NCBI GenBank assembly: GCA_016929595.1
Contig: JAFGIN010000117.1
Location: 62,001-126,000 of the forward strand
DNA: 64,000 nucleotides
Reading direction: 5' to 3'
DNA from: Chitinispirillaceae bacterium
Lineage (GTDB): Bacteria; Fibrobacterota; Chitinivibrionia; Chitinivibrionales; Chitinispirillaceae
This document shows positions 3,789-56,512 of the stretch, in pieces. Positions within the stretch are counted from its first letter, which is position 1; each line of letters opens with the position of its first letter. The position numbers and the translations under genes are program-made. The notes beneath the pieces are model-generated. The model was not told the DNA's origin and made no database searches. It saw nothing but the letters and a program-made list of their open reading frames with translations.

Positions 3789-3804
3789 AGTAAACCAGTC
3801 ATTC

Positions 3805-3877
3805 CAGGCCTGGAGGGACTCGAACCCCCAACCAACGGTTTTGGAGACCGCTACTCTACCAATTGAGCTACAGACCT
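3805..3877 (-). tRNA. trnW: tRNA-Trp (CCA anticodon)
   Basis: The 73-nt cloverleaf has acceptor stem AGGTCTG/CAGGCCT, discriminator G, D-arm GCTC...GAGT, anticodon loop CTCCAAA giving CCA, and T-loop TTCGAGT. The 3' CCA is not encoded and must be added. It sits between rpmG and secE, a widely conserved position. Confidence 0.97.
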
Positions 3878-3914
3878 ATGAATTATTGAAAACTTAACCG
3901 ATCACATAAAGCTT

Positions 3915-4067
3915 TTATTTTGCTTCCTTGTGCATCGTGCGCTTCCGTTCGAATGGACAATATTTTTTAAACTCCACTCTCCCGGAATGCTTACGTTTAT
4001 TTTTCGTCGTTTCGTAATTCCGCTGTTTACACGATGTACATTCCAGCGTAATTTTTTCTCTAGGCAT
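3915..4067 (-). CDS. rpmG: 50S ribosomal protein L33
   Basis: This 50-residue protein begins [20 protein letters not shown] and ends [17 protein letters not shown], matching the L33 family. Zinc-binding L33 has two CxxC pairs. Here the first is intact (C10, C13), but the second reads C-P-F-E, so the fourth ligand is Glu40 instead of Cys. The protein may bind zinc weakly or be on the way to a zinc-free form. It lies between tuf and tRNA-Trp, the expected place. Confidence 0.95.
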
Positions 4068-4100
4068 TTTATATTATCGCTTTTTTAAAAATTAACGGGA

Positions 4101-5306
4101 TTATTCAATAATCTCTGTGATAACGCCTGAACCAACCGTACGTCCACCTTCACGGATAGCAAAACGGAGTTCTTTTTCCATAGCGATTGGAGCAATCAAC
4201 TCAACTGAAATTTCAGCATGGTCACCAGGCATAATCATTTCCACGCCTTCTACAAGATTCAGACTTCCTGTAACATCTGTTGTACGGAAGTAGAACTGAG
4301 GGCGGTAACCACTGAAAAATGGTGTATGACGTCCACCTTCTTCTTTGGAAAGTACGTATACGTTACCTTTGAACTTCTTATGAGGTTTGATTGTCCCGGG
4401 TTTTGCCAGAACCATACCACGTTCAATTTCTGTTTTTTCAACACCACGAAGAAGTGTACCGATATTATCACCAGCCTGAGCCTGATCAAGCAGCTTGCGG
4501 AACATTTCAACGCCGGTAACAATTGATTTACGTGTGTCTTTAAGACCGACGATTTCAATTTCTTCACCAACTTTAATTGTTCCACGCTCAACACGACCGG
4601 TAGCAACTGTACCACGTCCTGTAATTGAGAAGACATCTTCAACTGACATAAGGAATGGCTTGTCAACTTCACGCTGTGGAGTCGGAATGTAACTATCAAC
4701 TGCTGCAAGAAGATCAAGGATTGGTTTTGCCTTTTCAGGATCTTCAGGATTTGTCAAAGCTGCAATTGCACTTCCACGAACGATAGGAATATCATCACCA
4801 GGAAATTCGTACTTTGAAAGGAGTTCACGGATTTCGAGTTCAACAAGTTCGAGCAGCTCGGGATCATCAACAACATCAACTTTATTGAGGAAGACGACGA
4901 TAAAACGAACACCAACCTGACGGGCAAGAAGGATATGTTCACGAGTCTGTGGCATTGGACCATCAGCTGCACTGACAACCAGAATCGCACCGTCCATCTG
5001 TGCAGCTCCAGTAATCATATTCTTGACATAGTCAGCATGTCCCGGACAGTCAACGTGTGCATAATGACGATTCTCAGTTGAATATTCAACATGTGAAGTA
5101 GCAATTGTCAGAATTTTTGTGTCATCGCGGCGGCCCTGAGATTCCGACGCTTTCGCGACTTCATCGTAAGCAACATATTTTGCCAAACCCTTAACAGAAG
5201 AAACTCTGGTCAGCGCTGCAGTTAAAGTTGTCTTACCATGGTCAACGTGTCCGATCGTACCGACGTTAACGTGCGGTTTGGTCCGATCAAATTTTTCCTT
5301 TGACAT
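4101..5306 (-). CDS. tuf: Translation elongation factor Tu
   Basis: EF-Tu delivers aminoacyl-tRNA to the ribosome. The 401 residues contain [14 protein letters not shown] (P-loop), [20 protein letters not shown] (G3 and flanks), NKVD (G4) and GSAIAAL (G5), followed by the two beta-barrel domains with [26 protein letters not shown] lies just upstream of the start. It is downstream of four tRNA genes, like the thrU-tyrU-glyT-thrT-tufB unit of enterobacteria, and probably shares their transcript. Confidence 0.98.
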
Positions 5307-5406
5307 GAAAACCTCTCAGTACATGGTTGATATTAATAAATTGTTTAGTTTAGAAATTATCGAAATAAATTTCCAGGTTTATAGTCCAGTTCTTCCCCTT
5401 AAAATA

Positions 5407-5480
5407 AGCCCACGACGGGACTCGAACCCGTGAACCTCATCCTTACCAAGGATGTGCTCTACCAACTGAGCTACATGGGC
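5407..5480 (-). tRNA. trnT: tRNA-Thr (GGT anticodon)
   Basis: Cloverleaf with acceptor GCCCATG/CGTGGGC, anticodon loop TTGGTAA (GGT) and T-loop TTCGAGT. The variable loop reads as six bases, one more than usual, making 74 nt. The discriminator is T and CCA is not encoded. It is the last of four tRNAs before tuf. Confidence 0.96.
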
Positions 5481-5489
5481 ATTAAAAAG

Positions 5490-5561
5490 AGCGGGCAATG
5501 AGATTCGAACTCACAACAGCCACCTTGGAAGGGTGGAGCTCTACCATTGAGCTATGCCCGC
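5490..5561 (-). tRNA. trnG: tRNA-Gly (TCC anticodon)
   Basis: The 72-nt cloverleaf has acceptor GCGGGCA/TGCCCGC, anticodon loop CTTCCAA (TCC), T-loop TTCGAAT and discriminator T. CCA is not encoded. It lies between tRNA-Tyr and tRNA-Thr(GGT), ten bases from the latter. Confidence 0.97.
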
Positions 5562-5576
5562 AAGGAATTTATAAAA

Positions 5577-5659
5577 TGGGCAGGGGTGGGTTCGAACCAC
5601 CGTAGACCGAAGTCAATGGATTTACAGTCCATCCCCTTTAGCCGCTCGGGCACCTACCC
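5577..5659 (-). tRNA. trnY: tRNA-Tyr (GTA anticodon)
   Basis: This class II tRNA of 83 nt has a long variable arm (TGACTTCGGTCTA region), acceptor GGGTAGG/CCTGCCC, anticodon loop CTGTAAA (GTA) and discriminator A. It is the second gene in the cluster. Confidence 0.97.
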
Positions 5660-5669
5660 AAAATCATGG

Positions 5670-5742
5670 AGCCGATGGAGGGACTCAAACCCCCGACCAT
5701 TCGATTACAAGTCGAATGCTCTATCAACTGAGCTACATCGGC
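5670..5742 (-). tRNA. trnT: tRNA-Thr (TGT anticodon)
   Basis: The 73-nt cloverleaf has acceptor GCCGATG/CATCGGC, anticodon loop CTTGTAA (TGT) and T-loop TTTGAGT (T instead of C at the third loop base). It is the only tRNA here followed directly by an encoded CCA (5667-5669), possibly by chance. It is the first gene of the tRNA-tuf unit, 30 bases downstream of the promoter -10 box. Confidence 0.97.
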
Positions 5743-5771
5743 TTAAATGCCTTGAAGAAAAAAGTCTTTCA

Positions 5772-5801
5772 AATATACTTACTGTTAAATTAAAAAGTCA
5801 A
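5772..5801 (-). promoter_or_regulatory. Sigma70-type promoter of tRNA-tuf unit
   Basis: On the minus strand TTGACT (5796-5801) and TATATT (5772-5777) are separated by 18 bases in very A/T-rich sequence, and the first tRNA starts 29 bases further on. This is a strong match to the housekeeping consensus and is expected for a highly expressed stable-RNA and EF-Tu transcript. The start of transcription would be near 5765. Confidence 0.7.
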
Positions 5802-5847
5802 ACTATTTAATTAAATATTTTTAACTTTATATTAATAGCAACACCAA

Positions 5848-6441
5848 TCAAGTGCTCCTCTTCGTCACTTTATCGATAATTCCATATTTCTTCGCCTCAT
5901 CAGCAGACATGAAATAATCACGATCCGTGTCTTCCACAATTTTTTGAACCGTCTGCCCCGTGTGAAACGCCAAAATCTCATTCAAATTATCCCGAACACG
6001 CAGCATCTCCTGAGCTTGTATCTCAATATCCGAAGCCGGCCCGAACATGTTTCCGGAAATCAATGGCTGGTGAATCAGAACACGGGCATGCTCCCAGGCA
6101 AGCCGCTTTCCTTTTTCACCTGCGCACAGAAGTACCGATGCCATGCTGGCTGCCTGCCCCATACATACAGTTGCAATATCAGACTTGGCATACTTCATTG
6201 CATCATAGATTGCCAGCCCTGAAGTAATCACTCCTCCAGGACTATTAATATATAGAGTAATATCCTCATTATTCTGCCCATCGAAATAGAGTATCCTTTT
6301 AACGATCGTTTCAGCAGTATCATCGTTGATCTCCCCCCAGAGGAAAATCTCCCTTCTCTTGAGAAGCTGCTCCTCCATCTCCGATCCAATCATCATCTTT
6401 TTCATATTCTTTGAAAAATCTTCGTTCTGACCTTTACCCAT
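5848..6441 (-). CDS. clpP: ATP-dependent Clp protease proteolytic subunit
   Basis: ClpP is the serine protease barrel that degrades proteins unfolded by ClpA/ClpX-type ATPases. The 197 residues show the catalytic triad: Ser99 in GQAASM, His124 in VLIHQP and Asp171 in EDTDRDYF, plus INSPGG. The N-terminus ([17 protein letters not shown]) is longer and more charged than the usual mature end, suggesting either a propeptide or a ClpP paralogue with a different partner. GGGAGG precedes the ATG. cysS lies upstream on the same strand, 121 bases away. Confidence 0.93.
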
Positions 6442-6562
6442 CTCTGCCTCCCAATCAAAATGGTTAACCCTGATAGAGTTATTTATGACCTCACCTGTTC
6501 ACCAGAAACAGAAACATTTATATATCCCCGATTCTGCTGCATAAGTCAGGTCTGAAGATTAT

Positions 6563-8020
6563 TTAGCTGCTAAAAGTTATCTCTGTGGTCCCATCAGGTA
6601 AATCTTTAACGGTAAGTCCCAGATTCACCAGTTCATTTCTTAATCTGTCTGCACCAGCAAAATCTTTATTCGCTCTTGCAGCCCTGCGCAATCGCACTTT
6701 TTCAAAAATGCCATCACAAACACCGGTGTCAAGCTCCCTGAGAGAGTATACAACAATCCTCTTCTCATCATCGCTGCTGTACGTATATGCATCAGCCGCT
6801 CTCTGAGTTAAATCGAGGCCCAGAATAGTATCCGCCCTCTCAGCAGCCACACGTTTCTGCATTAATGATAAAGAACCGTTTTTGAGAATATCCCATAAAG
6901 CCGCCATCGCACGTGGCATGTTAAGATCATCACAAACAGCATTAAAAAAAGGTGTCAGTATAGTTTCAATCACATCATTTTCTACATGCTCCGACGAGTC
7001 CTGTTGTGGAACAGCTTTACGCAGATTAACAAGCGCGTTTTCAGCCGCACTCAGACTATCCCATGAAAATGAGAGTGGATTACGATAATGTGCCGTGTAA
7101 CAGAACATTCTGTACGACAGCGCTGAAAAACCCTTCTTCTTCAACACCTCAAGAGTGACAAAGTTCTCGCCCGATTTGGCCATTTTACCTTTGTCTATAA
7201 CGAGAAATTCTCCATGTACCCAGTAATTAACAAACTTTTTACCCGACGCAGCTTCAGACTGAGCTATTTCGTTTGTATGATGCACCCTGATATGATCCGC
7301 CCCACCACAATGGATATCTATTGGTAAAGGAAGATACTCCGCCGACATCGCACTGCACTCTATATGCCATCCAGGAAAACCCACTCCCCAGGGGCTCTCC
7401 CATTCCATCTGGCGTTTCTTGTCTGAAGGAGAAAACTTCCACAGTGCAAAATCTGTCACGGCCCTCTTTTCACCCATCTCAACACGCTCACCCGCACGAA
7501 GAGTCTCCGGATCAAGACCTGCAAAATCACAATATGATGGAAAACGGGTAGTATCAAAATAGATCCCGTCATTAGTCCGGTAGGTAAACCCCTTGCGCTC
7601 CAGGTCACTTATCATCGAAATCATCTGGTCTATATGCGCCGTAGCCTTTGGCCATCGAGTAGGATCTGTAATATTTAATGCTTTGAGATCATCCTGAAAC
7701 CGCTTTGTATAAAATGCAGCAATATCCCAGACCGACTTGCCTTCACGTATCGCACCTTTTTCCATTTTATCATCACCGGAATCTTCATCTGAAGTCAGAT
7801 GCCCGACATCGGTGATATTGACGACATGCCTGACTTTATACCCAAGCGCCTGCAGAGTCCTTTTGAGAACATCTTCAAAAATATACGTCCGAAGATTTCC
7901 TATATGCGCATAATTATATACCGTCGGCCCGCAGCAATACATGCCTACTTCATTATGTGCAGCCCTGAAAAGCTCCTTCACGCGACCAGCGGTATTAAAA
8001 AGATAAAAATCGTGTTTCAT
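6563..8020 (-). CDS. cysS: Cysteinyl-tRNA synthetase
   Basis: Charges tRNA-Cys with cysteine. The class I signatures are the HIGH-like YNYAHIGNLRTYIFEDVL and the KMSKS-like GKMAKSGENF. Zinc ligands fit the Cys in MYCCGPTVYN, the Cys in GWHIECSAMS, and His in the HCGGADHIRVHHTNEIAQ region. The C-terminal helical domain ends with ARANKDFAGADRLRNEL, usual for the family. The length of 485 is normal. The ribosome-binding site is weak. It starts 3 bases after purM ends, so translation is probably coupled. Confidence 0.95.
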   Translation of the reverse strand: MKHDFYLFNTAGRVKELFRAAHNEVGMYCCGPTVYNYAHIGNLRTYIFEDVLKRTLQALGYKVRHVVNITDVGHLTSDEDSGDDKMEKGAIREGKSVWDIAAFYTKRFQDDLKALNITDPTRWPKATAHIDQMISMISDLERKGFTYRTNDGIYFDTTRFPSYCDFAGLDPETLRAGERVEMGEKRAVTDFALWKFSPSDKKRQMEWESPWGVGFPGWHIECSAMSAEYLPLPIDIHCGGADHIRVHHTNEIAQSEAASGKKFVNYWVHGEFLVIDKGKMAKSGENFVTLEVLKKKGFSALSYRMFCYTAHYRNPLSFSWDSLSAAENALVNLRKAVPQQDSSEHVENDVIETILTPFFNAVCDDLNMPRAMAALWDILKNGSLSLMQKRVAAERADTILGLDLTQRAADAYTYSSDDEKRIVVYSLRELDTGVCDGIFEKVRLRRAARANKDFAGADRLRNELVNLGLTVKDLPDGTTEITFSS

Positions 8021-54144: not shown

Positions 54145-54996
54145 CTATAATGGGGTACTAAGAGTTTCATCACGCGAAATGTTGCGTAAAAAGTTTCTTG
54201 CCTGCCTCGCAGTATGAAGTACTTCATCCATTTTACGCATTTCACTTCCTGACAGTTCCAAAATTATGCCTCCTCTAAAGTCAATCTCAGAAAGCTCATA
54301 GACCAGCTTTTTCCAGTTGATAATGCCACCACCCGGTTCCAGATGATCATCGTGTGCACCGTTGTTATCGTTGGCATGTATCATTTTCATATGCCTTCCC
54401 AGTTTATACATGACGTTGTACAAGTCTCCGGATAACACAGCATGCCCGGTATCCAGACATGTGCTTAAATTTAATTCAGCAACTGCACCTAAAATCCATA
54501 AAAGATCACTTACACTGCCGAAGGGAAGGTGCGGTAACATATTTTCCAGAACAAGCCCGACATGCAATGAACTGCACCGTTTCGCAACGCGACCTAAAAC
54601 TTCAGCCGCATTTCTCATCCGCTCCATACGCTCTTCAGTTGAAAAACTCATCACTTTATCCGGCCCCGGGTGAATGACAAAATAACGGGAATTTAAAAAC
54701 GACGCCGCTTCAGCCGCAGCCAAAAGCTCATGCAATGAGTAGTCACGAAGCTGTTCATCCGGTGATGAAACGTCTACATCAATAAAGGGAGCATGAAATG
54801 AATATGCTTCCATTCCCAACGCTGAAATGTATTTCGAGACCTCCTTTACACTGTTACTATCATGGTAATTGAGGTGCCCCGGAGACGAACAAACCTCAAT
54901 CATACAGAACCCTCCGTTTCTAATTGACTCAAGACAATCAAAAATACTTCTCTGGTAAAAACAGCCTGTTGAAAGGCCTATCGGCCAGTCGCTCAT
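54145..54996 (-). CDS. TIM-barrel sugar isomerase/epimerase-like (AP endonuclease family 2)
   Basis: 283 residues of the xylose isomerase-like TIM barrel. GLSTGCFYQRS at the start, FHAPFIDVDVSS, FVIHPGPDK, LVLENMLPHLPFGS, LNLSTCLDTGHAVLSG and MIHANDNNGAHDDHLEPGGG carry the metal and substrate residues (Glu, His, Asp). It could be a sugar isomerase or an endonuclease IV relative; the substrate is unknown. The start is at 54996 with AAAGGG six bases upstream. It overlaps the primase-like gene by 59 bases, so the two are coupled. Confidence 0.8.
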   Translation of the reverse strand: MSDWPIGLSTGCFYQRSIFDCLESIRNGGFCMIEVCSSPGHLNYHDSNSVKEVSKYISALGMEAYSFHAPFIDVDVSSPDEQLRDYSLHELLAAAEAASFLNSRYFVIHPGPDKVMSFSTEERMERMRNAAEVLGRVAKRCSSLHVGLVLENMLPHLPFGSVSDLLWILGAVAELNLSTCLDTGHAVLSGDLYNVMYKLGRHMKMIHANDNNGAHDDHLEPGGGIINWKKLVYELSEIDFRGGIILELSGSEMRKMDEVLHTARQARNFLRNISRDETLSTPL

Positions 54997-56389
54997 TTTC
55001 AACCCTTTCTATAAGAGATTTCTTGTATCCATCAAGACTACAACTGCCACTTTTTCCCTTGCAGTACCCGCTACTGCAGATAGATTGACAGTCGAAATGG
55101 GCCAGGGAATCAACGCCAGATGCAATCAGGGTAAAAAAGACTCTGGTATAAAAATCAGATCTTGTAGCAGCATCATAAAAATACCATTCCCTTCCCCAAC
55201 CATAATTTCTTTCGTATTTTGCTCTTATCAGCCCGGCTATATGACGGGGATGCCACCCTAAAGAAAGCAATATTCTCACTACATGACGAATACCTGCCGG
55301 TTTCAAAAGCAGATCATTCGGATTATCAAGTATACTTCTGACACACGGAGGCAGCGTCTCTGTGGAAAACCGATCATAGGATCTCCCCCATAATTCGGGA
55401 TTTGTATGTTCCAGTTCATAAAAAACTGAATGAAAATGAGCTGCCTGAGACTGTTCATACGCATCAATTAACGAAAGCATTGCTCTTGATTGATCGGGTA
55501 TACGCACTGATGCCCTATCTGCCAGATTCGATGCTCTATCAAGATTTCTCATTACCCCGAGTGCTTCATTGATACTCATCTCAAAAAATGGAATCGAAAC
55601 CATTACCGGTACCTTGTCACGAATCTGATCGTTCAGAATACCGTGATATTTCCAGGGTTTCAGATACAGACTGAACGGAATTCGTATTAACCTTGTATTA
55701 AGAAGATCTCCGTATTCTGTTATATCAATAGACACCATCTCACGTCCCCGAACCTGTGACGGTACCTCTACTGCTGATAATTCTACTGGTATACAGATCG
55801 ACTGGTCACACATCCTCTTAATTGACAAAGCAACAAATTCCATAACCTTGCCCAAGCCCAGATATGCTGCAGCAAGATCAGGTGAAATCGAACTGTTAGC
55901 AGGTGAATATTTTGTCGCATAACGTAGTTTCAGATGCTGCGGCAATCGTGCAATTTTACTTAGTTTTCCGAAGGCTGCAGAATTCTGATCGATTCGCCAG
56001 ACGAAGTGATGCCCTCGACCGCTCAAGAGATGAAGCGGTGAAACACCAAACTCAAGCAGCATCTTCTGAATTGCAGCTACAATACTCTTCTGAAAATCAA
56101 AACTCCGAATAGGATCAAGGTATGGCTCAGCCGGAAAGTCAAAATTTACATATTCAATATCCAGATGTGCTATCAGTGATGAATAATCCCAGAGCGATCG
56201 GTTTATGTCAAAACCACGTTCATAAAAGTAGTCAAGCTCACAAGGTAGCCGGAAATCGGTTCCGATTTCATGAACGACATCGCAAGGGGTAATAAATACA
56301 GCTGAGATACCGTCATGACGATCAGACTCCAGAAATTCAACAATCCTTCTCCTGATCGCAGGGCATCGATAATAATTTTCAACATCCAT
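54938..56389 (-). CDS. Archaeo-eukaryotic-primase-like protein with Cys-rich C-terminus
   Basis: 483 residues. Three AEP-like motifs: D77-I-E79 in AHLDIEYVNFDFP, S123-G-R-G-H127-H128 in LLSGRGHHFVW and D222 in MVSIDITEYGD, followed by NTRLIRIPFSLYLK like the nucleotide-binding strand of primases. The C-terminal part from LPPCVRSIL (C349) through GIRHVVRILLSLGW and RNYGWGREWYFYDA to C434, C438, C443 and C450 resembles the Fe-S domain of PriL. It may be a primase/polymerase of DNA repair or of a captured mobile element. ATG at 56389 (AGGA upstream) is preferred over 56428. Assignment by motif reading only. Confidence 0.55.
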   Translation of the reverse strand: MDVENYYRCPAIRRRIVEFLESDRHDGISAVFITPCDVVHEIGTDFRLPCELDYFYERGFDINRSLWDYSSLIAHLDIEYVNFDFPAEPYLDPIRSFDFQKSIVAAIQKMLLEFGVSPLHLLSGRGHHFVWRIDQNSAAFGKLSKIARLPQHLKLRYATKYSPANSSISPDLAAAYLGLGKVMEFVALSIKRMCDQSICIPVELSAVEVPSQVRGREMVSIDITEYGDLLNTRLIRIPFSLYLKPWKYHGILNDQIRDKVPVMVSIPFFEMSINEALGVMRNLDRASNLADRASVRIPDQSRAMLSLIDAYEQSQAAHFHSVFYELEHTNPELWGRSYDRFSTETLPPCVRSILDNPNDLLLKPAGIRHVVRILLSLGWHPRHIAGLIRAKYERNYGWGREWYFYDAATRSDFYTRVFFTLIASGVDSLAHFDCQSICSSGYCKGKSGSCSLDGYKKSLIERVENERLADRPFNRLFLPEKYF

Positions 56390-56512
56390 TGTCCTACCCG
56401 GGATAAGCTCGTCAGTTCTTTGGGACATCTATTCAGGATTCAAAGAACATGCCAATAACAATTCAACAAAATTCTGAATATTGCTGATTAGTAGCTCATA
56501 ATTTAAAGCTAC

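Follow-up and report, generated by a model that had tools for sequence, protein, structure and literature searches.

In archaeal and eukaryotic primases, the Fe-S domain of PriL serves de novo priming. According to Kazlauskas et al., PriL is hardly met with outside the primases of chromosomal replication, and the bacterial AEPs of their supergroup are, with few exceptions, encoded in mobile elements (PMC5862659). The report on plasmid pTN2 describes the plasmid-borne protein PolpTN2, a chain of 923 aa in which a PriS-like domain is fused to a PriL-like one carrying four Fe-S cysteines, and which lacks the histidine of motif II; in the passages covered, no EndoIV-like partner is mentioned, and the only further PriS-PriL fusions named are those of Nanoarchaeum equitans and of a Bacillus provirus (PMC3973330). 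A bacterial AEP, the LigC-associated Prim-PolC of mycobacteria, works together with EndoIV in excision repair (PMC5663958). It binds to short gaps which carry a 5' phosphate and fills these in with ribonucleotides; when the reaction was reconstituted, EndoIV proved to be the most useful enzyme for processing the ends (PMC5663958, PMC7442782).

Here we describe a chromosomal gene pair from a stretch of 64,000 nucleotides (the window) of the genome of a Chitinispirillaceae bacterium. It consists of a putative single-chain primase-polymerase, termed AEP-PriL, and a TIM-barrel protein. As judged from its sequences, the primase with its nuclease-like partner points to an undescribed DNA-repair pair; in the literature covered, which consisted mostly of papers available without subscription, no description of the AEP-PriL family or of its pairing with an EndoIV-like gene was found.

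Results and Discussion

The locus

The open reading frame for the AEP-PriL protein is present as given in a preliminary description of this DNA (Table 1). Since homologues begin with 'MDVxxYY', the start at 56389, which was used in that description, is a better choice than the ATG at 56428. Residues are numbered here according to the 496-aa form; thus, D77/E79 and D222 of the preliminary description are D90/E92 and D235. A chance reading frame would not be expected to have relatives in 10 of the 168 genomes of the phylum and at 47 loci elsewhere.

The coupling by overlap to a TIM-barrel gene, which had also been noted, is real. The tail of the AEP protein, RLADRPFNRLFLPEKYF, is the start of the TIM-barrel protein, MSDWPIGLSTGCFYQRSIF, read in a shifted frame; the conserved tail RPFNRLFLPDE was for this reason rejected as a functional motif. 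Among 33 measured pairs, including that of the window, the overlap was 4 bp in 12 and 59 bp in 10. The transketolase gene mentioned earlier is the adjacent upstream neighbour of the AEP gene and is transcribed divergently, and the surroundings of the pair are housekeeping genes. At a distance from the pair, five tRNA genes (Trp, Thr, Gly, Tyr, Thr) are clustered on the minus strand at positions 3804-5742 of the window.

Table 1. Features of the AEP-PriL locus (positions in the window; residue numbers of the 496-aa form).
Feature	Position	Strand	Remarks
AEP-PriL open reading frame	54938-56428	minus	496 aa from first ATG (upstream ATG at 56428)
Predicted AEP primase-polymerase with PriL-type Fe-S-like C-terminal domain	54938..56389	minus	483 aa, conserved start
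AEP motif I, D90-x-E92 (HLDIEYVNFD)	56153..56161	minus	aligned with DID of DPANN PriS-PriL
AEP motif II, S136-G-R-G-H-H141	56006..56023	minus	aligned with SGxxGxH
AEP motif III aspartate D235 (VSIDITEYGD)	55724..55726	minus	aligned with D216 of DPANN PriS-PriL
Flange strand R246-LIRIPFSLYL-K257	55658..55693	minus	counterpart of PriS RHLIRxPYSLHEK / RHLIRxPYSIHEK
PriL-type C-terminal domain	55040..55345	minus	conserved C362 (LPPC), C447, C456, C463
TIM-barrel partner gene (AP_endonuc_2 family), predicted EndoIV-type nine-ligand metal site	54145..54996	minus	conserved ATG at 54996
Overlap of AEP gene with TIM-barrel gene	54938..54996	minus	59 bp; AEP stop 54938, TIM ATG 54996

The AEP domain

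All three AEP motifs reported in the preliminary description were borne out by the alignment of 46 homologues, in which D90, G139, D235, R246 and K257 never vary and E92 and H141 are conserved in at least 90% of the sequences. An AlphaFold model of the protein (mean pLDDT 90.2, pTM 0.91) was compared with the PDB by Foldseek, as had been proposed, and fell among AEP enzymes. The best match was Prim-PolC of Mycobacterium smegmatis (E 8.9e-4, probability 1.00), followed by a CRISPR-associated Prim-Pol (CAPP), and the top nine matches were all AEP enzymes (probability 0.84-1.00). Only one of them is below E 0.001, and the assignment of the fold is therefore based on the run of AEP matches together with the motifs. 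By its motifs and its modelled fold, the protein belongs to the AEP superfamily.

No family match was obtained in NCBIfam, PHROGs or PADLOC, searches of PDB sequences with the single protein and with the family profile gave no useful match, and among viral structures Foldseek found nothing below E 0.001. The fold is shared with Prim-PolC and with the LigD polymerase, which are likewise bacterial and chromosomal; the AEP-PriL protein differs from both by its PriL-type domain, and no ligase partner gene was seen. LigD polymerase as the nearest kin was unsupported, since there was no similarity at the profile level (hhalign E 0.029). Prim-PolC was compared by fold, and the modelled match to it indicates no more than a common superfamily.

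The PriL-type domain

A profile was built from 24 primases in which PriS and PriL are fused (Nanoarchaeum equitans type); they come from DPANN archaea related to the Pacearchaeota genome mentioned below. These proteins are, like the window protein, single chains, of comparable length (about 440 aa), and have in common with it the order of the parts, AEP motifs I-III, the flange strand (RLIR-P-S-K), the PPC cysteine and C-terminal cysteines. Local alignment with hhalign gave E 6e-6 over 324 columns, with DIE/DID, SGRGHH/SGxxGxH, the aspartate of motif III, RLIRIPFSLYLK/RHLIRxPYSIHEK and LPPC/FPPC in register, so that C362 falls on the PPC cysteine. When the alignment was forced from end to end, E was 1.1e-8 and the score 46.7. 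Controls scored far lower: 60 block-shuffled profiles gave 3.3 +/- 2.7 (at most 11.3), reversal of the profile 7.1 and the TIM family 2.8. In this alignment C447 and C456 come to lie near PPNC and GxC, within a low-confidence stretch which was matched by eye. The C-terminal domain alone was only weakly similar to DPANN PriL (E 0.004); the claim of a PriL-type part is therefore based on the alignment over the whole length, taken together with the pattern of the cysteines and their joint loss described below. Together with the fold search, the end-to-end alignment supports the fused small- and large-subunit-like primase of the preliminary description, i.e., a PriS-like part followed by a PriL-like part in one chain, in register with DPANN PriS-PriL.

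There are also differences. The AEP-PriL family is too distant for Pfam PF01896 and PF04104, neither of which matched the window protein at E up to 10; it is bacterial and patchy, occurs beside an ordinary dnaG and is coupled to an EndoIV-like gene. The window protein has Y255 in the place of the PriS flange histidine, and in some AEP-PriL lineages the cysteines are dispensable.

Four more cysteines had been noted after LPPC. C447, C451, C456 and C463 do follow, but C451 is not conserved, and hence the conserved set consists of C362 and three others (C447, C456, C463), spaced 85-9-7 as compared with 72-12-6 in a DPANN example. C362, C447 and C456 were all present in 32 rows of the alignment and all absent in 10, C362 never being lost alone. 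The cysteine-less rows stand at four places of the tree (L029, L030, seven Verrucomicrobiota and one Pacearchaeota paralogue). This joint loss suggests that the three residues form one unit; it is indirect support rather than proof, since the loss of a whole C-terminal segment would give a similar pattern. The four conserved cysteines probably hold an Fe-S cluster, which, in view of the ten rows without them, would not always be needed.

Because a PriL-type domain also fits de novo priming, a damage-tolerance function should be considered, in which AEP-PriL would re-prime stalled forks de novo and the TIM barrel would process abasic sites or leftover primer ends. Such a function agrees with the complete PriS-PriL architecture, which aligns in register with that of DPANN primases, and PriL-type domains take part in primer synthesis (PMC5862659). 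However, the cysteines were lost in several lineages which keep the gene pair, neither a helicase nor an SSB gene was noticed beside it, and Prim-PolC, which ranks first among the structural matches, fills gaps. Re-priming thus appears rather unlikely.

Identity of the TIM-barrel protein

The partner was assigned by Pfam to AP_endonuc_2 (4.8e-34) and thus shares the fold of endonuclease IV (Nfo) and of MJ1311-like TIM barrels. It is far from a standard Nfo, with 26.7 bits against the equivalog cut-off of 129.65. The best curated model was CbiR, a cobamide phosphodiesterase, with 61.5 bits, likewise below the cut-off (105). The model of the protein (pLDDT 93.5) had as its closest solved relative in Foldseek the uncharacterised MJ1311, which is annotated as epimerase-like and has no established function.

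Nine residues are invariant in 37 of 37 TIM barrels: H68, H109, E151, D182, H185, H207, D216, H218 and E247. In hmmsearch alignments they sit on the nine ligand positions of the three-metal site of Mycobacterium tuberculosis EndoIV (alignment with 5zhz). A genuine Nfo from locus L016 aligned at eight of the nine ligands, and the ninth was displaced there by a few residues. Since the genome of the window holds a separate true Nfo, a standard EndoIV, the TIM barrel would be a second, divergent phosphoesterase-like enzyme; from its residues it can be described as a divergent EndoIV-like protein with a predicted three-metal phosphoesterase site.

The score of CbiR and the relationship to the epimerase-like MJ1311 would also agree with a small-molecule or signal pair, the TIM barrel being a CbiR-like or nucleotide phosphodiesterase which degrades an oligonucleotide made or elongated by the AEP. 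Against this are the bit score below the CbiR cut-off, the neighbourhood of the pair, where neither cobamide nor signalling genes were noticed, and a uracil-DNA glycosylase and Ku beside the AEP gene in L020 (see below); we regard such a role as improbable.

Linkage of the two genes

The TIM-barrel gene follows directly after the primase gene at 38 of the 47 loci, in about a dozen phyla. This tally was obtained by tblastn (38 intact genes and one remnant among 47) and supersedes an earlier one of 44/57, in which duplicate loci were included and loci had been hidden by antisense ORFs. The remnant is at L018, and at L033 the contig ends; the gene is truly absent from L020 and from the deep-branching L042, L045, L046, L049, L050 and L055. 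At L018 (3144-4665) the C-terminus of the primase and the N-terminus of the TIM barrel are both missing and 85 TIM residues are left; a single deletion seems to have taken both.

In 41 related genomes the TIM subfamily was found in exactly the 10 which have the primase (10/10 vs. 0/31; Fisher 9e-10, phylogeny not corrected for). Among 97 genomes from the side of the Verrucomicrobiota, the primase was present in 21 and the TIM barrel in 21, 20 of them shared and adjacent; the exceptions are one fragment at a contig edge and one primase without TIM barrel. Also, the protein distance matrices of primase and TIM barrel are correlated (r 0.85; reached in 0 of 2000 permutations). The two genes are gained and lost together.

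These results bear on a further alternative, an ordinary sugar epimerase which stands beside the primase by coincidence. The fold is the same and epimerases rank high in Foldseek, but joint presence and absence was found in two independent samples, and epimerases lack the nine-ligand EndoIV set: ketose 3-epimerase and IolI are without four of the ligands (H68, H109 and the D-x-H pair). A coincidental epimerase is in practice refuted by the co-occurrence, and we attach next to no probability to it.

Distribution and chromosomal location

The 47 loci were obtained by a scan of one genome per species, which was pattern-based and will have missed divergent members. Under the names given in the records, which are mostly those of metagenome bins, they belong to Fibrobacterota, Planctomycetota, Verrucomicrobiota, Desulfobacterota, Latescibacterota, Omnitrophota, Hydrogenedentota, Acidobacteriota, Chloroflexota, Clostridia, Endomicrobia and one Pacearchaeota archaeon. 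L027 is from a named strain, Roseiconus nitratireducens JC645. A search of 60 related genomes yielded nine relatives, and within families the distribution is patchy.

Tandem pairs of diverged primase genes without a TIM barrel were seen at three deep-branching loci (L042:3435-6618, L046:7986-10819, L055:6661-9491), near a gene resembling cysteinyl-tRNA synthetase. One primase of the tandem pair in L055 is without any of the cysteines; judging from this, the two may form a heterodimer.

The preliminary description had placed the gene outside any obvious mobile element. In agreement with this, no relative was found in IMG/VR, in 50,697 phage records or in 72,556 plasmid records, and no CRISPR-like repeats, i.e., direct repeats of at least 22 bp within 200 bp, were detected between 40 and 64 kb of the window. 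On these searches, with cas genes covered by inspection of the ORFs, the family differs from the PrimPol-PV1 supergroup, which is encoded by mobile elements, and from CAPP, which is adjacent to CRISPR-Cas. The genome of the window has an ordinary dnaG, and no canonical PriS was found in it. A second, partial DnaG-like match (L137, G000:C69:65953-66258), which covers positions 2-103 only and lies inside an open frame of 903 aa of the same genome, could be a mobile-element primase.

A captured mobile-element or defence gene, i.e., a primase for replication or defence which carries a nuclease along as a passenger, would be in keeping with the patchy distribution and with the location of most bacterial PrimPol-PV1 AEPs in mobile elements (PMC5862659). 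The virus, phage and plasmid collections as well as PADLOC gave no matches, however, CRISPR-like repeats were absent from the region searched, the surroundings are housekeeping genes and the distances of the two genes are well correlated. The mobile-element idea is unsupported by these collections, and capture is in our opinion very improbable. Between the two options left by the preliminary description, a repair primase or a captured element, the ordinary dnaG, the lack of relatives in the mobile-element collections and the co-occurring EndoIV-like partner favour the former.

Neighbouring genes at the loci of relatives

The one near relative without TIM barrel, L020 (Desulfobacteraceae), has in its place a gene of the uracil-DNA-glycosylase family (PF03167, 3e-9) which overlaps the primase gene (4927-7096); Ku (5e-43) is encoded two genes upstream of the primase, and a LigD polymerase-like fragment was present at the contig edge. 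Furthermore, the second gene upstream in L019 encodes Fpg, the second gene downstream in L045 an HhH-GPD glycosylase, and a gene for an Nfo-like EndoIV lies near L016. Only 3 loci have glycosylase neighbours, and tight coupling is limited to L020.

Several loci of Verrucomicrobiota and Planctomycetota have an Hsp20 gene directly beside the pair (L051:7195-7908, by Pfam; L023, L032, L036 and L040, by inspection), and genes for universal stress proteins occur near it in L017 (6136-6933) and L026 (6966-7979). These few loci may point to a stress setting. In the Clostridia-like loci L043, L044, L048 and L057, the pair stands directly before a gene which reads as histidyl-tRNA synthetase.

Proposed function of the gene pair

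With the domain make-up, the conserved motifs and ligands, the tight coupling, the joint gain and loss and the chromosomal location as observed, we infer which reactions the two enzymes catalyse, on what substrate and in what order, taking mycobacterial Prim-PolC and EndoIV as the model. The first gene would provide a single-chain primase-polymerase with a PriS-like AEP domain followed by a PriL-type domain, and the second, from its overlapping start, a divergent EndoIV-like TIM barrel with a three-metal phosphoesterase site. After a glycosylase or spontaneous base loss has left an abasic site or a blocked break, the TIM barrel would cut the backbone or clean the 3' end; the AEP would then hold the gap, perhaps gripping the 5' end by its PriL-type domain, and insert one or a few (ribo)nucleotides, and a host ligase would seal the nick. 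A pair of an AEP and an EndoIV-like gene fits, by analogy, the chemistry of Prim-PolC and EndoIV. We consider such a chromosomal two-enzyme module for excision repair, with cutting or cleaning of the lesion left to the TIM barrel and gap filling to the primase-polymerase, to be just on the probable side.

Several results speak against the repair module: the TIM barrel is far below the EndoIV cut-off and scores best with CbiR, a standard EndoIV is already present in the genome, the PriL-type domain is better suited to de novo priming than to gap filling, the AEP is remote in sequence from LigD polymerase (E 0.029), ten rows are without cysteines, and glycosylase neighbours were found at 3 loci only. 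A wider proposal is put forward tentatively, as possible but doubtful, namely, a bacterial, chromosomal pathway of excision repair in about a dozen phyla in which PriS and the Fe-S domain of PriL, as known from the replicative primase of archaea and eukaryotes, are combined in one chain and served by a dedicated EndoIV-like nuclease; the PriL part would have been re-used to hold the gap, and its cluster might be redox-switchable.

Significance

With the AEP-PriL family, scattered bacterial chromosomes would encode in one piece the primase that has two subunits in archaea and eukaryotes. The family breaks both rules of Kazlauskas et al. (PMC5862659), and none of the family libraries searched recognises it. 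The archaeal member (L055) and the likeness to DPANN primases bear on the movement of AEPs between the domains of life. Bacterial NHEJ was first suspected from AEP genes beside Ku (PMC4538821); in a similar way, the coupling of an AEP with an EndoIV-like gene leads to a prediction for excision repair that can be tested directly.
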